The notes beneath the pieces are model-generated. The model made no database searches, was not told where the DNA came from, and saw nothing but the letters and a program-made list of their open reading frames with translations. Shown piece after piece: positions 5,354 through 40,704 of a stretch of DNA of 64,000 nt (positions within the stretch are counted from its first letter, which is position 1; each line of letters starts with the position of its first letter). A program made the translations under genes and the position numbers. This DNA comes from Trichoderma breve. Its lineage: Eukaryota > Ascomycota > Sordariomycetes > Hypocreales > Hypocreaceae. The stretch is taken from the NCBI RefSeq assembly GCF_028502605.1, contig NC_079235.1:3906001-3970000 (forward strand), read 5' to 3'.

Positions 5354-5433
5354 GCGTGAATGGTTTAGTGGTAAAATTCTCCGTTGCCATCCGCAACGTC
5401 GGGGAGCCCTGGGTTCGATTCCCAGTTCACGCA
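5354..5433 (+). tRNA. tRNA-Gly (anticodon GCC) with 9-nt intron
   Basis: A cloverleaf can be drawn by eye. The acceptor stem is GCGTGAA (5354-5360) with TTCACGC ending at 5432, followed by discriminator A at 5433. The A box contains TGGTTTAGTGG. The anticodon stem is CTCCG/CGGGG, the anticodon GCC lies at 5386-5388, and the T arm has loop TTCGATT closed by CTGGG/CCCAG. Removing a 9-nt intron (5390-5398), one base 3' of the anticodon as in canonical eukaryotic tRNA introns, leaves the 71-nt body expected of tRNA-Gly. CCA is not encoded. It lies in tandem with a near copy 36 bp downstream. Confidence 0.96.
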
Positions 5434-5469
5434 TCCCGAGATCCTCATTCTCGGTCCTTTCTTTCCAAA

Positions 5470-5551
5470 GCGTAATTGGTTTAGTGGTAAAATTCTCCGT
5501 TGCCATCCGAGCAGCGTCGGGGAGCCCTGGGTTCGATTCCCAGATTACGCA
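5470..5551 (+). tRNA. tRNA-Gly (anticodon GCC) with 11-nt intron
   Basis: Second tandem copy with the same D, anticodon and T arms as its neighbour. The acceptor stem is GCGTAAT (5470-5476) paired with ATTACGC ending at 5550; discriminator A is at 5551 and the anticodon GCC at 5502-5504. The intron (5506-5516) is 11 nt, two longer than in the first copy and partly different in sequence. Again 71 nt remain after removal. The acceptor-stem differences from the first copy occur in pairs that keep base pairing, so both look functional. Confidence 0.96.
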
Positions 5552-31160: not shown

Positions 31161-34100
31161 TGCGACAAGGGAGCCTGTCTCTCGGTTGTGAGTAGTGCGA
31201 GATCAGGGTGGTATCGAGGAGCAATAAGCAGCTGCACGTTGACAAGGAGTCAAAGCAAGCTCCATCACCACATCCCGGCCCTCGTCCATCCTATATATGC
31301 TGGGGATAGATAAAACCAACACATCAAGATAAAAATCTCCATCAAGGCGGATTCCCAAGTCCGCTAGGGGCGTCGTCACTCGGCGGCTCGTGCTTCGTAC
31401 TCTTATTTTTTCTTTCTTTATCCACACGCCCCCCTTTGGCCCGTTATGCGAGAACGAAAAAGTCACTGCTAGTATGGCCTCCTCGACCCGCTTCTGGTGC
31501 GTATAAGTGATATGCAGTCTTCTCGACTCTCGGACACTTAATCTCCAAAGTCCGCAGGGGTGACATAACATTGATCTCCCATGCTGACTGAATTAAGCTC
31601 ATCATCGCGGCGTGTGAGCCAGATTGTCGAACCTGGTTGGCCGCCTTATGCATGTTTAGCTTTTCCCAAGACATGTTTTGCCTTGCAAGTGACGGAGTAA
31701 CGGGGTGGAACTGCGTGCCGCAAGCGTCCAAGACTTGATGATGTTAGCGGCCCAAAGTGGCTCGCATGAGATTTTAGATATGTGTTTACAATGAATGGGC
31801 TCAGGTACGGCAAAGTACAACGCGCTGCTGGAATCCGGATACAGTCAAAAGACCGAAGCAATCAATCAATTAATGGTTGTTGTTTGTGCACGTAACTCCG
31901 GGAACAGGCCATGTGTGCAGCTATTCACAGCATGTCCAGGTGGCGTCCATGTAAGTCCCTTGCGTCAGAGACAATGTGCGCATACCCAACCCAACTCAAC
32001 TCAGCACAATTGCCCGAGATGGAAAACACAGTAAATTTTCTTTTAATTTTCTTTTACAGTACACTCAACTGTTGCTCTCCAAGATTAAACAAAGGGCGTG
32101 CGAGTCAGAATCTAAGTTGAAGGAACGGGCAGCATAACGCTTATAACGCGAGATCCCAGACTAACACGGCATAAGCAGCATAACGCCCAACCATGAGCAA
32201 GACTACCGACCGCTAAGCTTCTAGCAGGATCCGACCTTTGACTCGATCAGGAATCGCCTCGAGGCCCCGGTGACTCACTAGCCTCAAAGAAATCTCTGCT
32301 CAACCGCACCTTGATCCATTGAAGGTTTGCCGAACCACCACGGCGTTCCACGGCGTGACCTCCCCTGGTCAACTCTACCGTAACGTGGGCATACATGTAT
32401 TCACCAGCAATGAATGTTTTCGCACACATTTCGCACACATTCAACCCCCTGTCCAGCCTAAACGCCTAGAGATGTCCTCTAAAGAGCCTCTAAAGAGCTG
32501 AGCCCCATCCTGATCTCTCCGACAGCCATCGGTTACGGAATTAGGACTCCGGACAAGTCGAGGAGCCCTTTTGGCTGCCCAGCTCTTCCTCTCGACCAAA
32601 CGGAAAAAAGCGGATGAAATATTGAGCCGGACTGCGACAAGCCACTACCGTGATTTAGCAGCTAATTCCAGGAAATCCCACTGAGGCTAACGGAGTTGCA
32701 GCGAATCTCTGCTTGAGCAGAGTACATATTTTTGCACGCCATGGCTCTAGTACAGCCCGTAGTGTAGCATGTTTTGTAAGCCTCGCAAGTTGGGCTGGCG
32801 GAGTTTTGTAATGTCCGCCGAACAAGATAGGCTATCATGACGACAAACATGGAAATAGGGTCGAGATGGTGGTTTTGGGGAACCAGCAACTCCGACACCA
32901 GACCGTTGAGGGGGAATTGCGGTTCGAAACCTGCGCATCCCAGCCTCCTTCTCCCTTGCCTAAAAGCATGAGATCCGCGCCGCAAGGGAAGGGATATTTC
33001 CGCCAGGCATCAATACATTAATAATGAACTCCGAGTTTTCGAGGGCATCGACCCTCCGGAAGGATTCATCTAGAATGACATTGATGATGCAGCTTGCGGA
33101 TGGTGTGCGTTGGCATTGGTGTCGGGTGAGACAAACGACAGCGATGTACACAATGGCGACTGTGGTGTTGCAATCTCGAGAGATGGCACCTTTGTGAATA
33201 CAGCCGGGATACAAAACATTCCCTTTTAGGGCAGTAGATTATGAGATCCTTCTTGTTTGTTATCAATCAGTGGCGGCAAAGTGGCCAACAAACGTAACCA
33301 ACGACCCAGCAAATTACACGCCCCCTCCTCTCTTCCTCTCCATGCTTGACATTTCAGTATTTTCATAGTACAAGGCAAACTTGTGGTTTAAAAGGGGATT
33401 CAGTTTAAAATTCGTTGCAGTGCATCACATGCTCACAATGACATGTTCGTATATATGATGTCTTGAGCTTGGACCGATCTCATATCAAAGCTCTTGCCCA
33501 ACCTACGGGTAGATGTCACATAATAGGGGGCTACAGAATAGGAACCGAGGGCACCATACGTAAACTGATACTTGTCCTTTTGGCGTTATCATACTCGTAT
33601 TCCATAGGAGTATATTTGCAAGTACTTTATTTGGACGAATGACGTTGAGACGTAGGATTTCAGGTAGCAACTATAATAATAAAGTTACCCATTCATTGGG
33701 AACAGACATATTCTTCTACAGCAACGTAGTTTGGACTATTCTCTTGGCATATGTAACAGTTAACAGTTGGCCAAAGGGCGTCGAAGGATCATTAGTTGTC
33801 GTCTTATATCATACGGGCCAGCCGTGATATGCAAGTGTCCACTTGTGCGGGCGCGCCAGATCCTTCCTTTAATTCAGCAAAATCCTGTCAGGCGGTTTTG
33901 CCATAATAAACTTTCTCTTTCTCTTTCTCTTCATTATCGCATACAAATTATTTATTCTCATACGATGCACGCCCATCTGCCAAGCTACGCCATCTCAGAG
34001 CCGTCGTTTCTGCAAGCTTTCGGAGACCCATTCAGTTCCTTTGGTGGAGATTTGGAAGAAATACAGAGTATATTCTTGCCCAAAGAACAGTCGTGATGCT

Positions 34101-34737
34101 GACGCCATATTATGAATAGCTCATATACTCCCATCATCATTAATTCTCGAACTGAAGGATTCTCGTCCTCTAATATTAGGCGGACTATCTACTTCGAAGT
34201 AGCGCAACTCGAGCTTGAGCGATAGCGACGACCCCTTGCCTCACGAAAATTGCGTCACGAAATATTTATAAAGGAATAGACGTCTCTACAATTCATTTTG
34301 CACGTGAAATTCCTTCTGTCGCATGTGCAGAGACTGTCAAAAAGTATGCTGTGGTCAAAGTGATGATATCTTGTGTCTCCTTTTGACCCTTGCATCGGTG
34401 GAGGGTTACCATAAATTGGAGTTCAAGCAATGCGCAGCATCTTTTCGTTGTCCCTTTTTTTTTATCATTATTAAATGAAGTAAATCAAGCCAGTTCAATG
34501 CGAATATGCTATTAGACAGCAGTACATTTTTTGTCTGGCGAGGCTGCACCAATGAAATTAGGAATAGAGGTCGATACTCAATTGGCTACTGACTGGTTGG
34601 GTAGTCAGGCAGCAAATCAAATAAAAGAACAGCCTGGCGATAGCGATTAATCGATTACACTTAAATTTGAACACAAATGTGCTCAAAAGGCTCCTAACCT
34701 GTTATATTTCCATCCCAAATTAGTCTATGAAGCCATC
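31161..34737. other. 3.6-kb AT-richer gene-free stretch before the NLR gene
   Basis: The transporter promoter is at the left end. The remainder contains only short unrelated ORFs. A CTTTCT microsatellite-like run is near 33910-33940 and several poly-T or poly-A runs are present. Base composition shifts toward AT from about 33 kb onward. No transposon open reading frame was found. Confidence 0.45.
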
Positions 34738-37700
34738 ATGGCATCTAAGCCTCTGAGTTACAATGACTACATTGTCGGATGGATTTGTGCGCTATCAGAG
34801 GAGCGAACAGCCGCGACAGCGATGCTAGACGAGAGGCATGATTCTCTTCCAATATCCAACTCATCCGACACCAACTCTTACACCTTAGGGGCCATTGGCA
34901 AACACAATGTCGTTGTGGTTTGTCTACCAGAAGGCGAGATAGGAACCAACTCAGCTGCAAGCGTCATTATGCAGCTGGTCACCACATTTCCATCGATCAA
35001 GTTCGGACTCTTGGTAGGGATTGGCGGCGGTATCCCCCCACGCGTCCGATTGGGAGACATCGTTGTTAGTACACCCGTCGGAGAGTATCCTGGAGTAGTT
35101 CAATGGGATCTAGGTAAGGCTACTGGGACCGGCTTCGTGCGGACGGGGTCGTTGGATCGCCCTCCCAAAGCACTACTCTCAGCTTTGACGACGATGAAGA
35201 CCAACCATGAAATGGAAGGAAACAAGATATCTCAACTTCTAGAGGAGCTTGCAAGAAAATGGCCAAGACTAGCCTCCAAATATACCTGGAATGATAGGCT
35301 CAAAGACGCTGCATTCGAAGAAGAGAACGCGGATGACAAAAGATCGCCCGGTGATCCGAGAATTCACTACGGACTGATTGCATCGGGCAATCAGGTCATT
35401 AAAGACGGTTCCATGAGGGACGAAATTAATGCAAGATTGTGCGGCCAAGTCCTCTGTGTGGAGATGGAGGCAGCAGGAGTGATGAACAACTTCCCATGCC
35501 TTGTCATTCGAGGAATATGCGACTATGCAGACTCGAAAAAGAATGATCATTGGCAGGGATATGCTGCCAGCATAGCAGCGGCGTTGACAAAGGAACTTTT
35601 ACAGATAGTGCGACCTACGCAAATTGAGGGAGAGCCTTCAGCGAAAGATTTTTTAAGCCAGGGTTAGTAATTGACATTCTATTGCTTCAACTATACATCA
35701 AATTGACCAAAATTACAGTTCATCAAAGCGTGAGCCACATCCAACTAAAGGTGGATGAACAGGAAGAGAAACAGATACTTGACTGGCTTACACCTATAGA
35801 TTATGGGTCATTACACAGCGACTGCTATAAGAGGCTTCAACCTGGAACTGGAGAGTGGTTCCTTGGGCAAAAAGAATTCCAAGACTGGATTACGGGCAGC
35901 AACAATACATTATTTTGTCATGGCATTCCCGGAGCAGGGAAGACTATACTGGCCTCACTAGTCATCAGTCACCTCTCATCGAAATTTCGAGGCATCTCTG
36001 ACATTGGCATAACCTATGTCTACTTTAACTACAATAAGCAAGAAGATCAAGATTTCCAGAAGCTGCTTGCGAGTCTATTGAAACAACTTGCTGGAGGTCT
36101 GCATCCTTTTCCAGAAAGCACCAAGGAACTGTATCATGAGCACTCAAAGAAAAGGACACGAGCATCGCTTGTGGAGCTGGAAACAGATCTCAGGTGTGTT
36201 ATGACAAAATACTCAGAAGTCTTTATTATTCTCGATGCCCTTGACGAATGCCAGTTTTTCGAACTAAATCTCTTCCTCTCTGCACTTTTCGAGCTTCAAA
36301 AGGAGCATAGAATAAGAATTTTGACAACTTCGAGACCTATTCCAGAAGTTATGGATCGGTTAAATAACCTCAACATCATCAAGTTACAAATTCGTGCTGA
36401 GACGAGCGACGTCACGAAGTATATAGAGGCCCATATCGACAGATTACCTAAAGTCGCTCGTGAAAGTCCGATTCTAAGGGATGAGATCAAGGCAGATATA
36501 TCTGAGGCTGTCGATGGAATGTATGTTGTGAAGTACTGAGAGAAACGAAACACCATTGACATATGTTAGGTTCCTTTTGGCTCAAATATATGTTGTTTTG
36601 CTTCAAGACAAGATAACTGTGAACGATATACGCAGGCAATTAGTAATCTTCAAATCCCGGAATACAGAGAATAGCGGTGATCAAAAAGGGAAAATGCTTG
36701 CCTATGCGTACGAGCAAGCTATCGAGAGAATCAGAAATCAGAAGGAAGGGTTTAGAAGTCTTGCGATGCGAGCTCTAGCATGGGTGACCCTCGCAAAAAG
36801 ACAAATCACCACATTAGAGCTTCAACACGCTCTTGCAACGCAGAGTGGGATGACCACACTCAGTCAAGATGACTTGCCTGACCTCACAGACATAACTTCA
36901 GCTTGTGTTGGGCTACTTACTGTCGATGAAGAAAGTCGCATAATTCGACTAGTGCACTATACAACACATGAATATCTAGAGCAAACTCGAAACTCTTGGT
37001 TTCCTGGCGCTGAGGAGTCAATTTTGAGAAGCTGTCTTACATATCTATCATTCGAAATCTTCAAGTCCGGGCACTGTCGATCAGATGAAGGGTTTGAACA
37101 CAGAATAGGATCCTTTCCCTTATTCCATTATGCCGCAAATCACTGGGAATGTCACCTTTCTCACAATACGGAAGTCATTGATGAAGTGTTACATCTTCTC
37201 GAGTGTCAGACCAGCGTTGAGGCATCGTTGCAAGCGCGATTAGTATTGAAACAGCACCCTTTACACCAAAATTATAGCCAAGAGTTTCCCTCAAACATGA
37301 CGGGACTACACGCGGCTGCAGTTTTAGGGCTTACAGAAGCAACAAAATTGCTTCTTGAACGTGGCTACAGTCCAGACGCAATAGACAGTTACAATTATAC
37401 ACCCTTATCATTGGCTTCTATCTATGGCCATGAAGCTGTAGCTGAACTATTGGTCGTTGCAGGAGCAGATCTCGAAATAAAAGACTTGAAATATAAACGA
37501 ACACCACTCATGTGGGCTAGCGCAAGAGGATATGAGGCTATGGTCAAGTTACTTCTAGAGAAAGCAAGTGATGTTAATGCACAAGATTGCGTTGGCCGAA
37601 CACCCCTATCTCTTGCGGCAAATTTTCAAGATAAGAGGATTATCAAGCTACTTCTCCAGCGTGGTGGCACGATTGACGCCAACGATCTTTTGGGTTCAAT

Positions 37701-38868
37701 AAAACTATTTTATTGTATCGGTGAAAGCGCTTTTTCGGTTGGGGAAAACGATCATCAACATTTGACTCAAAACTCCAAAGAGAGTCGCTATCATCTCTCG
37801 GAAATAGGCAGTGATGTCGACATTTATCAGCTGATAGAGGGCGGCACTGATTTGAATGCGAGAACGTATGCTAATCGTACAATTCTATCGCATGCTGCCG
37901 AACTTGGTCGACAGAATGTCATCCAATTGCTTATTGAGACGGGCAAGGTCGATTTAAACGAGGCAGACGGCGAAACTGGTCTGACACCACTACACTATGC
38001 TGTGATAAGCGGGCACCTATCTATCGTGGAGCTTCTAGCCAATGCTGGAGCCCAGCTCGAGATAAAAGAGAAGGAAAATCGAATGACAGCCTTAGGATTA
38101 GCTATACACCACAAACAGAAGGATGTATTTGATTTTCTATTGAAAAGAGACGCCAACATACACATACCTGATAGAGATGGCAGAACGAGTCTTTATAACG
38201 CCGCTATTTGGGGAGAATTAGCGATTATTCGACAGTTGGTTGACAAGGGCGTCGATATAAATGCCAGGACCTCTGATGGACAGACGGCCCTATTTGCAGT
38301 CATCGGACTGGAAGATTTCGATGCCGTAAGGCTATTAGTTGAATTAGGTGCTGACATTAATGCTAGAGAAGAGTCGGGGCGCACACCCCTTCATTACGCG
38401 AGTATCGTTGGAAATATCGATATTGTAAGGCTGTTGGTTGAAAGAGGTGCTGATGTTGATGCGACATCCGATGGCGTCACATCACTATTTTTTGCTGCTT
38501 TTTGTGGAAAGATCGAGGTTGTAAGGCTATTAGTTCAATTTGGTGCCGACATCGATACCAGAGGAAGCGATAGCGTAACGCCCCTGATGAGTTCTATATT
38601 GCTCAGGCACTCTGACAACATCCAATCGTTGATAGATTTGGGCGCCGATGCCAACGCAAGAGATAAACGTGGTCGTTCGGCGTTATTCTATGCTATTCAC
38701 GACGACGATGCGCCCGTTGTTGAGCTACTAGTAGGAATGGATGACGTTGACATCAACAGACCAGATGCTGAAGGAACTACACCAATTATGTTAGCTATGC
38801 GCCTTGAGAGCCATGAAATCATAAAAATATTGCTTCAGTCGGGTAAACTAACAAACTATGGTAGCTAA
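34738..38868 (+). CDS. NOD-like receptor: PNP phosphorylase-like, NACHT, ankyrin repeats
   Basis: Exons 34738-35662, 35719-36520 and 36570-38868 give 1341 residues. The N-terminal 300 residues are a purine/uridine phosphorylase-like (PNP_UDP) domain, with YIVGWICALSEERTAA, LVGIGGGIPP near residue 90, VRLGDIVVS, and the late VEMEAAGVMNNFPCLVIRGICDYADS. A linker leads to a NACHT NTPase with P-loop GIPGAGKT at 377-384 and Walker B FIILDALDEC (Asp 481). A winged-helix-like part follows (RALAWVTLAKRQITTLELQHAL near 642), then about 14 ankyrin repeats (818-1335), one of them degenerate. This PNP-NACHT-ANK layout is a known fungal STAND/NLR architecture: the PNP part is thought to act as effector or sensor, NACHT as switch, and ankyrins as the ligand-binding end. 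Repeats are diverged from each other. Codon use is AT-richer than in neighbouring housekeeping genes. Intron 2 is needed to bypass a stop at 36537. Confidence 0.93.
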
Positions 38869-39364
38869 GAAGCCTATAACTAGATAGAAACAAGAGCCGA
38901 TCCAAATGCTGCGCTCTAAATTATAATACATATATTACTATAAGGTAGCTATAGACACGACCTGAATACGCTTAGGTAGTTTGTGCACTCGACATCAATA
39001 TCAAGACTACTGACCTAATTAGGTACTTTCGCTCAGAATTGCATCTTTGTTGGCAAGTCTGCGTGCAAAGGGTTTGCAAAGTCCCATTAGGGTAAGACGT
39101 TCGTCACGAAACCGCCTCTTGAAGACGTTGGATCGTATATCTCAACCTGACGCCCACGTGGCTATCCCAGTTTAAACATAAAAAAAACCTATACATATAG
39201 CCTTAATCTAGGTAACCTTCAGCAGCAACATAGTATAGTAGACTCGAAGAATAACGGCGGTTCAATGGTTCATTTTATTACTGCGTGTTTGACTAATCCG
39301 GCAATTATGCCGCAATTATTGGATAGCAGAACCGATCTGAGCCCCAGAAACTCCCAGAAACTCC
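38869..39364. other. Flank between NLR gene and ankyrin relic
   Basis: AT-rich and non-coding. A short run just after the stop (about 38893-38915) reads RADPNAAL in one frame, resembling another ankyrin fragment. A duplicated CAGAAACTCC lies near 39345-39364. Confidence 0.35.
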
Positions 39365-39880
39365 GTTAAATCCACGCTCTTTCAATACGTTGCATCTTAC
39401 GGAAATCTCGATACAATTCGCAAAACGTCCTTAGTTTACAATTTGTGGGGGGTTGATATCGCGAGACTCCTAATTGAAAGGGGCGCTGATGTCAATGCCA
39501 AAGCTTCCGACGGAATAACACTCGTATCCCTAGCCCACCCTTGGATATGTTGATATCTTACGGCTCCTATTACAAAGAGGAGTGTATTTGAATGCCAAGA
39601 ACAATGAAGGAACAACGCCACTACATATAGTTGCGGCGTCTTAGCGACTTGCCAATTTCTAAGCGTTAATAAAGGAAAACACCGCTATCAATGTGAGAGA
39701 TGACAATTGCCAGTCACTGTTATTTCATGCTAATGCAGCTGGGCGATGTTGAGGCCATCGCGGAGATGATGATGGCGGTGGATCTAGTTGACATGAACAG
39801 CCCAGATGTGACGGGCATGATGCTGATGCCCTTTGTTGAACAGCGTGGGGATGAGAATGTCAAATCTCATCTACTTTGAA
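39365..39880 (+). pseudogene. Decayed ankyrin-repeat tail, paralogous to the NLR C-terminus
   Basis: Ankyrin-like peptide blocks appear in successive frames with stops and frameshifts between them. About 39370-39535 reads through VDIARLLIERGADVNAKASDG to a stop. About 39542-39643 reads VDILRLLLQRGVYLNAK and NEGTTPLHIVAAS then stop. About 39665-39730 reads ENTAINVRDDNCQSLLFHA. About 39735-39880 reads GDVEAIAEMMMAVDLVDMN then SPDVTG, corresponding to VGMDDVDINRPDAEG at the end of the intact upstream gene. The order of blocks mirrors the terminal repeats of that gene, so this is most simply the remains of a duplicated or second receptor's 3' end. No NACHT or PNP remnant was found here. Confidence 0.8.
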
Positions 39881-40704
39881 CAGCCAGGTTTACAGACACT
39901 AACGGGAACGTCATACATGATTAGAACGGTGCTGTATTATACAAACAAGAGTAAAAGGTTGCTTAAAATACAATTTGCCCTAGTGCTAATTATGTATAGA
40001 GCGTTCACAGAAGTGATCCACCACTCCATGCTCGGAATAATCTCACTGGCAGCCCGTCTTTTTGTAATCCAGGTACGTCACGTCACATACCTTATGCAAT
40101 GCAGCATTGATCGCAGATGGCCAAATGCACGCACGTTTCAAATCTCACCACCGGCTGCCAAATGCCGAGCCCGAAGACCAGATCGGCACGCGTTGAAAGC
40201 AGGTCAAGGCCCAATCCAGCAATGATCTTTGTGTCCGTCCCGCTCTCCGACAATCTGTGACAGCATCCTTTAGCGTCTTTGTCCGTCAAATAGCCCGAAG
40301 GTGCCATGTGCCACGACTAAGCCTGAACGAGTATCCAGCTATAACGTGATGTCATCCATAGCTCAAAGCAGATTCGCTATCGTCAGATTGGCGACGTAGA
40401 TTCCCATCTCTCAACCCGCCTATTGGACGGCGCCTTTCGCACCGCCAAATTCAAGCTCGGCGCCGCGAATCAAAGCATCGTGACAGCGCCCTGGCATCAC
40501 GTCACTTGCTGTCATGCACGAGCTTCGCGAAGCATATTCACACGGTCCAAGCTGAATGAATCCTTGGCACGGGCACAGCCACCGATAGCATCGACTTCAC
40601 GAAAGTCCACTCAAGAAGTTCGCCTTCGCCTTTTGCTTTCGCATTCTCCTCAAATAACTAACACCCGCTGAGATCTCGGGTTTTCAGTCAGCATATATAC
40701 ATCC
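39881..40704. other. Intergenic after the ankyrin relic
   Basis: The first part is AT-rich; from about 40080 the sequence returns to the GC level of the housekeeping genes. The right end holds the promoter of the next gene. No supportable coding region. Confidence 0.4.

Follow-up and report, generated by a model that had tools for sequence, protein, structure and literature searches.

Fungal NOD-like receptors (NLRs) that combine PNP_UDP, NACHT and ankyrin (ANK) domains have been described in Podospora anserina, and NLRs of the Pa_3_8560 type from that fungus carry effector, NTPase and ankyrin repeats in this order, and their variable and selected ankyrin sites are found for the most part on the concave side (Dyrka et al. 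2014, PMC4986451). Among the Sordariales, NLRs with a PNP_UDP_1 domain include 170 of the T-NACHT type and 145 with NB-ARC. Ankyrin plus PNP proteins form the first row of the major paralogous expansions tabulated for Trichoderma in 2011 (T. reesei 19, T. virens 38, T. atroviride 45; Table 6, PMC3218866), and a 2019 comparison reports gains of ankyrin and HET/NACHT genes in the genus and PNP_UDP_1 numbers exceeding those of other Sordariomycetes. In Aspergillus fumigatus, the incompatibility (het) genes hetA (PNP_UDP, one allele with NB-ARC) and hetD (PNP_UDP) and the hetE candidate (NACHT plus ankyrin) were mapped by crosses, expression tests covered three of the four genes that were fine-mapped, and these genes show trans-species allele divergence (PMC11138114). 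Here we analyse a 64,000-nucleotide stretch of Trichoderma breve DNA (the window; C4:3906001-3970000 of a 38.5 Mb genome in nine contigs) which carries, at 34738-38868 on the + strand, a gene for a 1341-residue protein. On balance we take this to be a fungal NLR of the STAND class, built from a PNP effector, an NPHP3_N NTPase, a winged helix and an ankyrin sensor, and working as a ligand-gated ATP (adenine-nucleotide) nucleosidase that would cause regulated cell death.

The T. breve receptor, known here from sequence alone, shares its domain order and the concave-face location of variable ankyrin sites with the P. anserina proteins, but its NTPase is of the NPHP3_N type by Pfam and its repeats are not highly alike. 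With the tabulated Trichoderma proteins it shares both end domains and the genus; that table lists them as unknown, adds a CCHC zinc finger, and neither names an NTPase nor singles out the present gene. The A. fumigatus genes share the PNP effector and/or the NTPase-ankyrin parts and a similar pattern of allele divergence, whereas the T. breve receptor holds all modules in one protein.

The gene has three exons and two introns, and the joined frame contains no internal stop. Fifteen GT..AG combinations keep the frame and the chosen pair has the most fungal-like borders; this model is reproduced by a T. breve database protein (P0121) with 0 mismatches in the alignment, bearing out the clean three-exon reconstruction made in the original prediction from the letters alone. 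The features of the gene are as follows.

34738-35662, + strand: exon 1, the PNP nucleosidase effector domain (Pfam, residues 16-272) and the start of the linker
34801-34803, + strand: E22, aligned with catalytic Glu12 of the Escherichia coli methylthioadenosine/S-adenosylhomocysteine (MTA/SAH) nucleosidase, MTAN (PDB titles name a Glu12Gln mutant)
35467-35469, + strand: E244 (VEMEAAG), aligned with the ribose-binding Glu of MTAN
35521-35523, + strand: D262 (GICDYADS), aligned with catalytic Asp197 of MTAN (PDB titles name an Asp197Asn mutant)
35539-35553, + strand: K268-N269-x-x-W272, from alignment with bacterial PNP domains
35663-35718, + strand: intron 1, 56 nt, GTTAGT..TTACAG
35719-36520, + strand: exon 2, STAND NTPase of the NPHP3_N type (residues 351-514)
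35922-35945, + strand: P-loop (Walker A) GIPGAGKT, residues 377-384
36222-36248, + strand: Walker B FIILDALDE, residues 477-485
36521-36569, + strand: intron 2, 49 nt, GTATGT..TGTTAG
36570-38868, + strand: exon 3, end of the NTPase module, winged helix, ankyrin array and stop codon
36754-36984, + strand: winged-helix domain GPIID_WHD (Pfam, 29.6 bits)
37288-38865, + strand: ankyrin array, 14 canonical repeats and one degenerate (Pfam, repeat alignment and structure model)
37666-37809, + strand: residues 942-989, within the degenerate repeat or insert, absent from P0121 and overlapping the low-confidence stretch of the structure model
38425-38511, + strand: residues 1195-1223, about one ankyrin repeat, in frame (87 nt), beginning at a donor-like GTAAGG, absent from P0121

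An N-terminal effector, a central P-loop NTPase with both Walker motifs, a winged helix following it and C-terminal repeats are thus found in a single protein, as in fungal NLR/STAND receptors, and the earlier assignment to that class stands. Pfam profiles place PNP_UDP_1 at residues 16-272 (E 2.9e-12), NPHP3_N (PF24883) at 351-514 (E 8.5e-37, 127.3 bits) and GPIID_WHD at 638-714 (29.6 bits against a cut-off of 27); this winged helix had gone unnamed in the earlier domain list. The P-loop begins at residue 377, exactly where it had been placed, and the Walker B motif at 477. The NACHT label is not upheld: Pfam NACHT (PF05729) gives no match in the receptor at E <= 0.01, and the locus also lies outside the 86 NACHT matches in the genome (89 of 121 candidates scored). 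The predicted structure of exon 3 (mean predicted local distance difference test score 79.2, below 50 over the first 39 residues, which form the end of the NTPase module) shows canonical helix pairs for 14 repeats and a broken pair, carrying a low-confidence insert, for one more, so the predicted count of about 14 repeats is right for the canonical ones and gains a degenerate one.

Both stretches missing from P0121 were probably treated as introns in that record. Among 12 other aligned relatives, residues 942-989 are present without a gap in eight, shortened by 6 residues in one and by 18 in two, and lacking altogether (all 48) in one; residues 1195-1223 are ungapped in 11 of the 12 and short by 9 in the remaining one. 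Alternative splicing of 38425-38511 would drop about one ankyrin repeat, a possible route to sensor variation. A chance open reading frame (ORF) is ruled out by the relatives (P0122-P0126, for example, are 74-75% identical over 100% of the length), and a pseudogene by the open exons and uninterrupted joined frame.

In the working we propose, the ankyrin array would bind a variable partner, either the product of a non-self allele or a molecule of an intruder. Binding would free an ADP-locked NTPase for nucleotide exchange and oligomerisation, and the resulting clustering would switch on the PNP domain, which would cleave ATP, or a related adenine nucleotide, at its N-glycosidic bond; the loss of nucleotide would then starve and kill the compartment. 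If the PNP head does cut ATP, bacterial ATP-depletion defence would extend to a fungal receptor.

The sensor is the part of the protein that differs most between species. Relatives were compared as proteins, drawn from the best 120 matches, and we call the window's receptor and its close relatives group A, and a sister PNP-NLR group B. Across the window and the five nearly gap-free sequences among the 12 relatives other than P0121, mean pairwise difference is 0.11 in PNP, 0.20 in NPHP3_N, 0.09 in the winged helix and 0.42 in the ankyrin array, which is 59.8% identical to that of T. harzianum TR1 and 43.1% to that of T. virens GV298. In these six sequences binding-face positions differ at 0.66 and exposed positions of the outer helix at 0.41 (p 2e-8, with sites treated as independent), and the true ankyrin register ranks first of 33 shifts for this excess; the concave and outer sets presumably correspond to those of DARPin numbering, which we followed. 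When the comparison is confined to group A records from the five species in which a group B record is also present (gappy records included), the binding face remains more divergent than the outer positions in group A (0.69 against 0.46, p 5e-6) but not significantly so in group B (0.27 against 0.235, p 0.24). The group B test has less power because these proteins are less divergent, and they lean in the same direction (the true register comes ninth among 33 shifts, and an excess at least as large arises in 6% of random draws of six exposed positions). Ankyrin identity is lower in group A than in group B for 10 of 10 species pairs (57% against 92% between SZMC 28015 and T. camerunense, for example), and PNP identity likewise for 10 of 10, by a smaller margin. 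The fast divergence of the array between species, mainly at binding-face positions, is new here as read from these alignments, and its pattern differs from that of the sister receptor in the same five species.

Within the array, the repeats are unlike one another (identity among the 14 is 28% on average and 52% in the closest pair), far from the more than 85% identity over at least 100 amino acids by which high internal conservation is recognised in fungal NLRs (PMC4986451). This had been noticed in the original prediction and set against the near-identical repeats of rapidly evolving receptors; the observation is right, but the contrast it implied is not, as on these comparisons unlike repeats do not mean slow evolution, and the diversity sits between species and strains.

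The domains of group A also disagree about their history. The PNP, NTPase-winged helix and ankyrin trees are at odds with one another and with the group B tree, a conflict that is likewise new here, as judged by the approximately unbiased (AU) test on four clades, three picked after viewing the identity table and one taken from group B. T. simile with SZMC28012 (98/96 in the PNP tree) is rejected by the ankyrin part (p 1.7e-4) and not by the NTPase part (0.24); SZMC28015 with SZMC28012 (100/100 in the ankyrin tree) is rejected by PNP (6e-5) and NTPase (6e-10); and SZMC28015 with THAR02 (97/90 in the PNP tree) is rejected by the ankyrin part (7e-6) and not by the NTPase part (0.10). The group B clade of THAR02, SZMC28015 and T. 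camerunense is rejected in NTPase (p 1.2e-4), ankyrin (1.5e-4) and, marginally, PNP (0.037), although group B is an imperfect species yardstick because its NTPase tree departs from its other two. P0136 and P0145, which align with group B, were excluded from trees and counts. Between two T. virens records of different strains, identity is 94.6% in PNP, 77.4% in NTPase and 58.9% in the ankyrin array. A pattern like that of old, highly divergent alleles unsorted by species is seen between species and between these two strains, with one sequence per strain and orthology taken from identity and locus tags. Such tree conflict and divergence would be expected of old, recombining alleles maintained by balancing selection, as reported for the A. 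fumigatus het genes. A more speculative reading is that recombination and balancing selection have acted since ancient times on this gene as a recognition locus of the Harzianum/Virens clade, a single-gene weapon in which an ATP-nucleosidase would be hard-wired to an ankyrin reader with its binding face under diversifying selection, and in which allele differences older than the species would decide which fusions or intruders trigger energy-depletion death. The receptor is split or truncated in T. harzianum TR1 (P0005 and P0172), T. pleuroticola (P0135) and T. semiorbis (P0004), reflecting either broken alleles or poor gene models.

The same diversity could have arisen in an arms race if the receptor detects bacteria, mycoviruses or partners in mycoparasitism rather than conspecific non-self, to which we give a little less than an even chance. 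Divergence of the binding face is equally expected in that case, and related PNP effectors are located in bacterial defence loci; the conflict between domain trees fits allelic recombination somewhat better. With a recognition end differing so strongly between species, the receptor is a good candidate for testing in self/non-self recognition, and should strains with different versions of the locus reject one another, the biocontrol genus Trichoderma would gain a molecular het locus.

More doubtful, though still a possibility to be reckoned with, is a reading in which unrecognised paralogues and faulty gene models, not old alleles at a single locus, account for the differences between species. 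The comparison covered proteins from the best 120 matches, so such errors may be present, and several records do look broken or mis-modelled: of the 300 PNP residues, 43 are missing from P0130 and 71 from P0132, and the TR1 gene is spread over two records. However, the nearest near-full-length PNP paralogue in the T. breve genome shows 59% identity (68% at most in partial segments), compared with 80-97% in PNP within group A; each named strain has one group A record among the matches listed (counting P0005 and P0172 as one); and the receptor and a neighbouring acyltransferase gene, on contigs of equal length, have locus tags within five of each other in both T. harzianum TR1 (08350 and 08352 / 08355) and T. 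virens GV298 (008440 / 008445).

We turn to the effector, whose intactness had been predicted and whose nucleoside-binding Glu and Asp (VEMEAAG, GICDYADS) had been singled out for checking. Alongside the PNP_UDP_1 match, the three catalytic carboxylates E22, E244 and D262 are in place, and they are invariant in 74 of 74 aligned sequences, as are G94 and G96 of the glycine-rich loop. E244 presumably corresponds to E174 of MTAN, which we take to have the ribose-binding role. The fold is MTAN-like, and the PNP head is intact and probably enzymatic. PADLOC profiles, judged without a curated cut-off (the output gives none), match it as a PN-superfamily CBASS effector (3.2e-17) and as PDC-M60C (2e-18), the latter being, by our own equation from gene make-up, apparently the Detocs protein DtcC; the suggested analogy with bacterial anti-phage systems is supported and sharpened by these matches together with the catalytic residues. 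Detocs DtcC and the CBASS SAVED-PNP effectors have the same carboxylates and K268/W272 in their PNP domains; they differ in being bacterial and in their sensor parts (a response regulator and SAVED, respectively). K268 and W272 recur in five of the six bacterial PNP domains compared, mostly defence-type by profile.

Several observations weigh against an ATP nucleosidase. Among NCBIfam models the domain still matches an MTAN equivalog best (NF004079, 73.2 bits against a cut-off of 169). In 20 plasmid records, matches span only residues ~202-289 (7 of 20) or 107-301 (13 of 20) and none covers 80% of the query. The first PNP domain of a Leptolyngbya protein (PNP1) is the one of the six bacterial domains without K268/W272; N269 is absent there and from an Acetobacteraceae PNP domain; and three rhizobial relatives (L043-L045) have the K without the W. 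Given such exceptions among bacterial relatives, K268/W272 alone cannot prove ATP specificity. The domain could instead be a true MTA/SAH-type nucleosidase, by which the receptor would alter methyl-cycle or bacterial quorum-signal metabolites without depleting ATP, as was proposed for PNP_UDP NLRs of P. anserina (Dyrka et al. 2014, PMC4986451). MTANs are also the best structural matches, although fold ranking would not separate the subfamilies because MTANs dominate solved structures. The bacterial enzyme (MtnN) shares fold and carboxylates, but K268/W272 are found neither in E. coli MTAN nor in three aligned MTAN chains, and with the T. breve domain scoring so far below the family cut-off of NF004079, and below that of TIGR01704 as well (32.2 bits against 73.8), we consider this reading unlikely. 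A catalytically dead PNP part, or an adaptor signalling by clustering only, is more improbable again: many STAND receptors signal via non-enzymatic adaptors, but the invariant carboxylates and glycines argue against it.

Three observations on PNP relatives elsewhere may be added. The Leptolyngbya plasmid protein (L048:3202-6099) has two tandem PNP domains and a STAND-like NTPase, with K-N-x-x-W only in the second PNP. A contig titled as a Deltaproteobacteria metagenome-assembled genome (L040:6001-9062, NYXK01000071.1) holds a PNP ORF of fungal type with an NTPase-like ORF after it and is probably fungal contamination; L042 looks similar, and both, having the look of fungal contigs, were kept out of the bacterial counts. 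A search of 50,697 phage records returned no PNP relative at E 1e-5.

By architecture the receptor is ordinary, of a kind already known and common in T. breve, while its sensor is unusually diverse. The genome has 149 NPHP3_N and 86 NACHT matches at E <= 0.001, and 67 loci of the PNP subfamily (two clusters probably merge two genes each), 38 of them with an NPHP3_N match at most 2.5 kb downstream on the same strand; the pairing used 123 of the 149 matches, the weaker ones being dropped. The other 29, without a used match within 2.5 kb, may be stand-alone or NB-ARC-linked PNP effectors. With an intact enzyme head carrying defence-type residues, the present gene offers a concrete test case for the ankyrin plus PNP expansion, at a locus for which synteny apparently serves as a guide in other species.

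The description of the locus as an isolated accessory island does not survive. The neighbours look like core genes. Those to the left we take, by eye, to encode an RNase P subunit, an acyltransferase, a pantoate ligase and a major facilitator superfamily transporter, and those to the right presumably comprise one of no assigned kind, a WD-repeat gene and other core-like genes. The acyltransferase, the one neighbour checked by sequence search, is 98.0% identical to that of T. harzianum TR1 (586 columns) and 90.6% to that of T. virens GV298 (636 columns), and the locus tags suggest synteny in both species. The drop in GC is real (0.42-0.48 per kb over the gene against 0.51 for the window). Decay of gene or flanks by repeat-induced point mutation is ruled out, the indices being near those of the rest of the window, and the flanks (31300-34730 and 38900-40700) match only themselves in the genome in a search for a repeat or transposon origin that skips very common words. 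Downstream lies one further element.

39443-39876, + strand: decayed ankyrin remnant, spread over three frames and interrupted by stops, which follows the C-terminal part of T. virens P0133 (residues ~1431-1642) in collinear order

The score of the remnant was reached by none of 100 first-order random sequences. A recent tandem duplicate is not supported as its source, with only 12-30 bp DNA matches to the gene and no other copy in the genome. It is better explained as a lost extension of the array because its pieces are collinear with P0133 and the last, over 46 columns, shares 50% identity with the end of T. aggressivum P0132. The extension is missing from P0134, a shorter T. virens record, and in P0133 and P0132 it could possibly be a fusion with a neighbouring ankyrin gene instead. 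Elsewhere in the window, at 5354-5551, there are two tandem tRNA calls (Asp, anticodon atc, and Gly, gcc), of which the unusual atc may be an artefact of the bacterial model.
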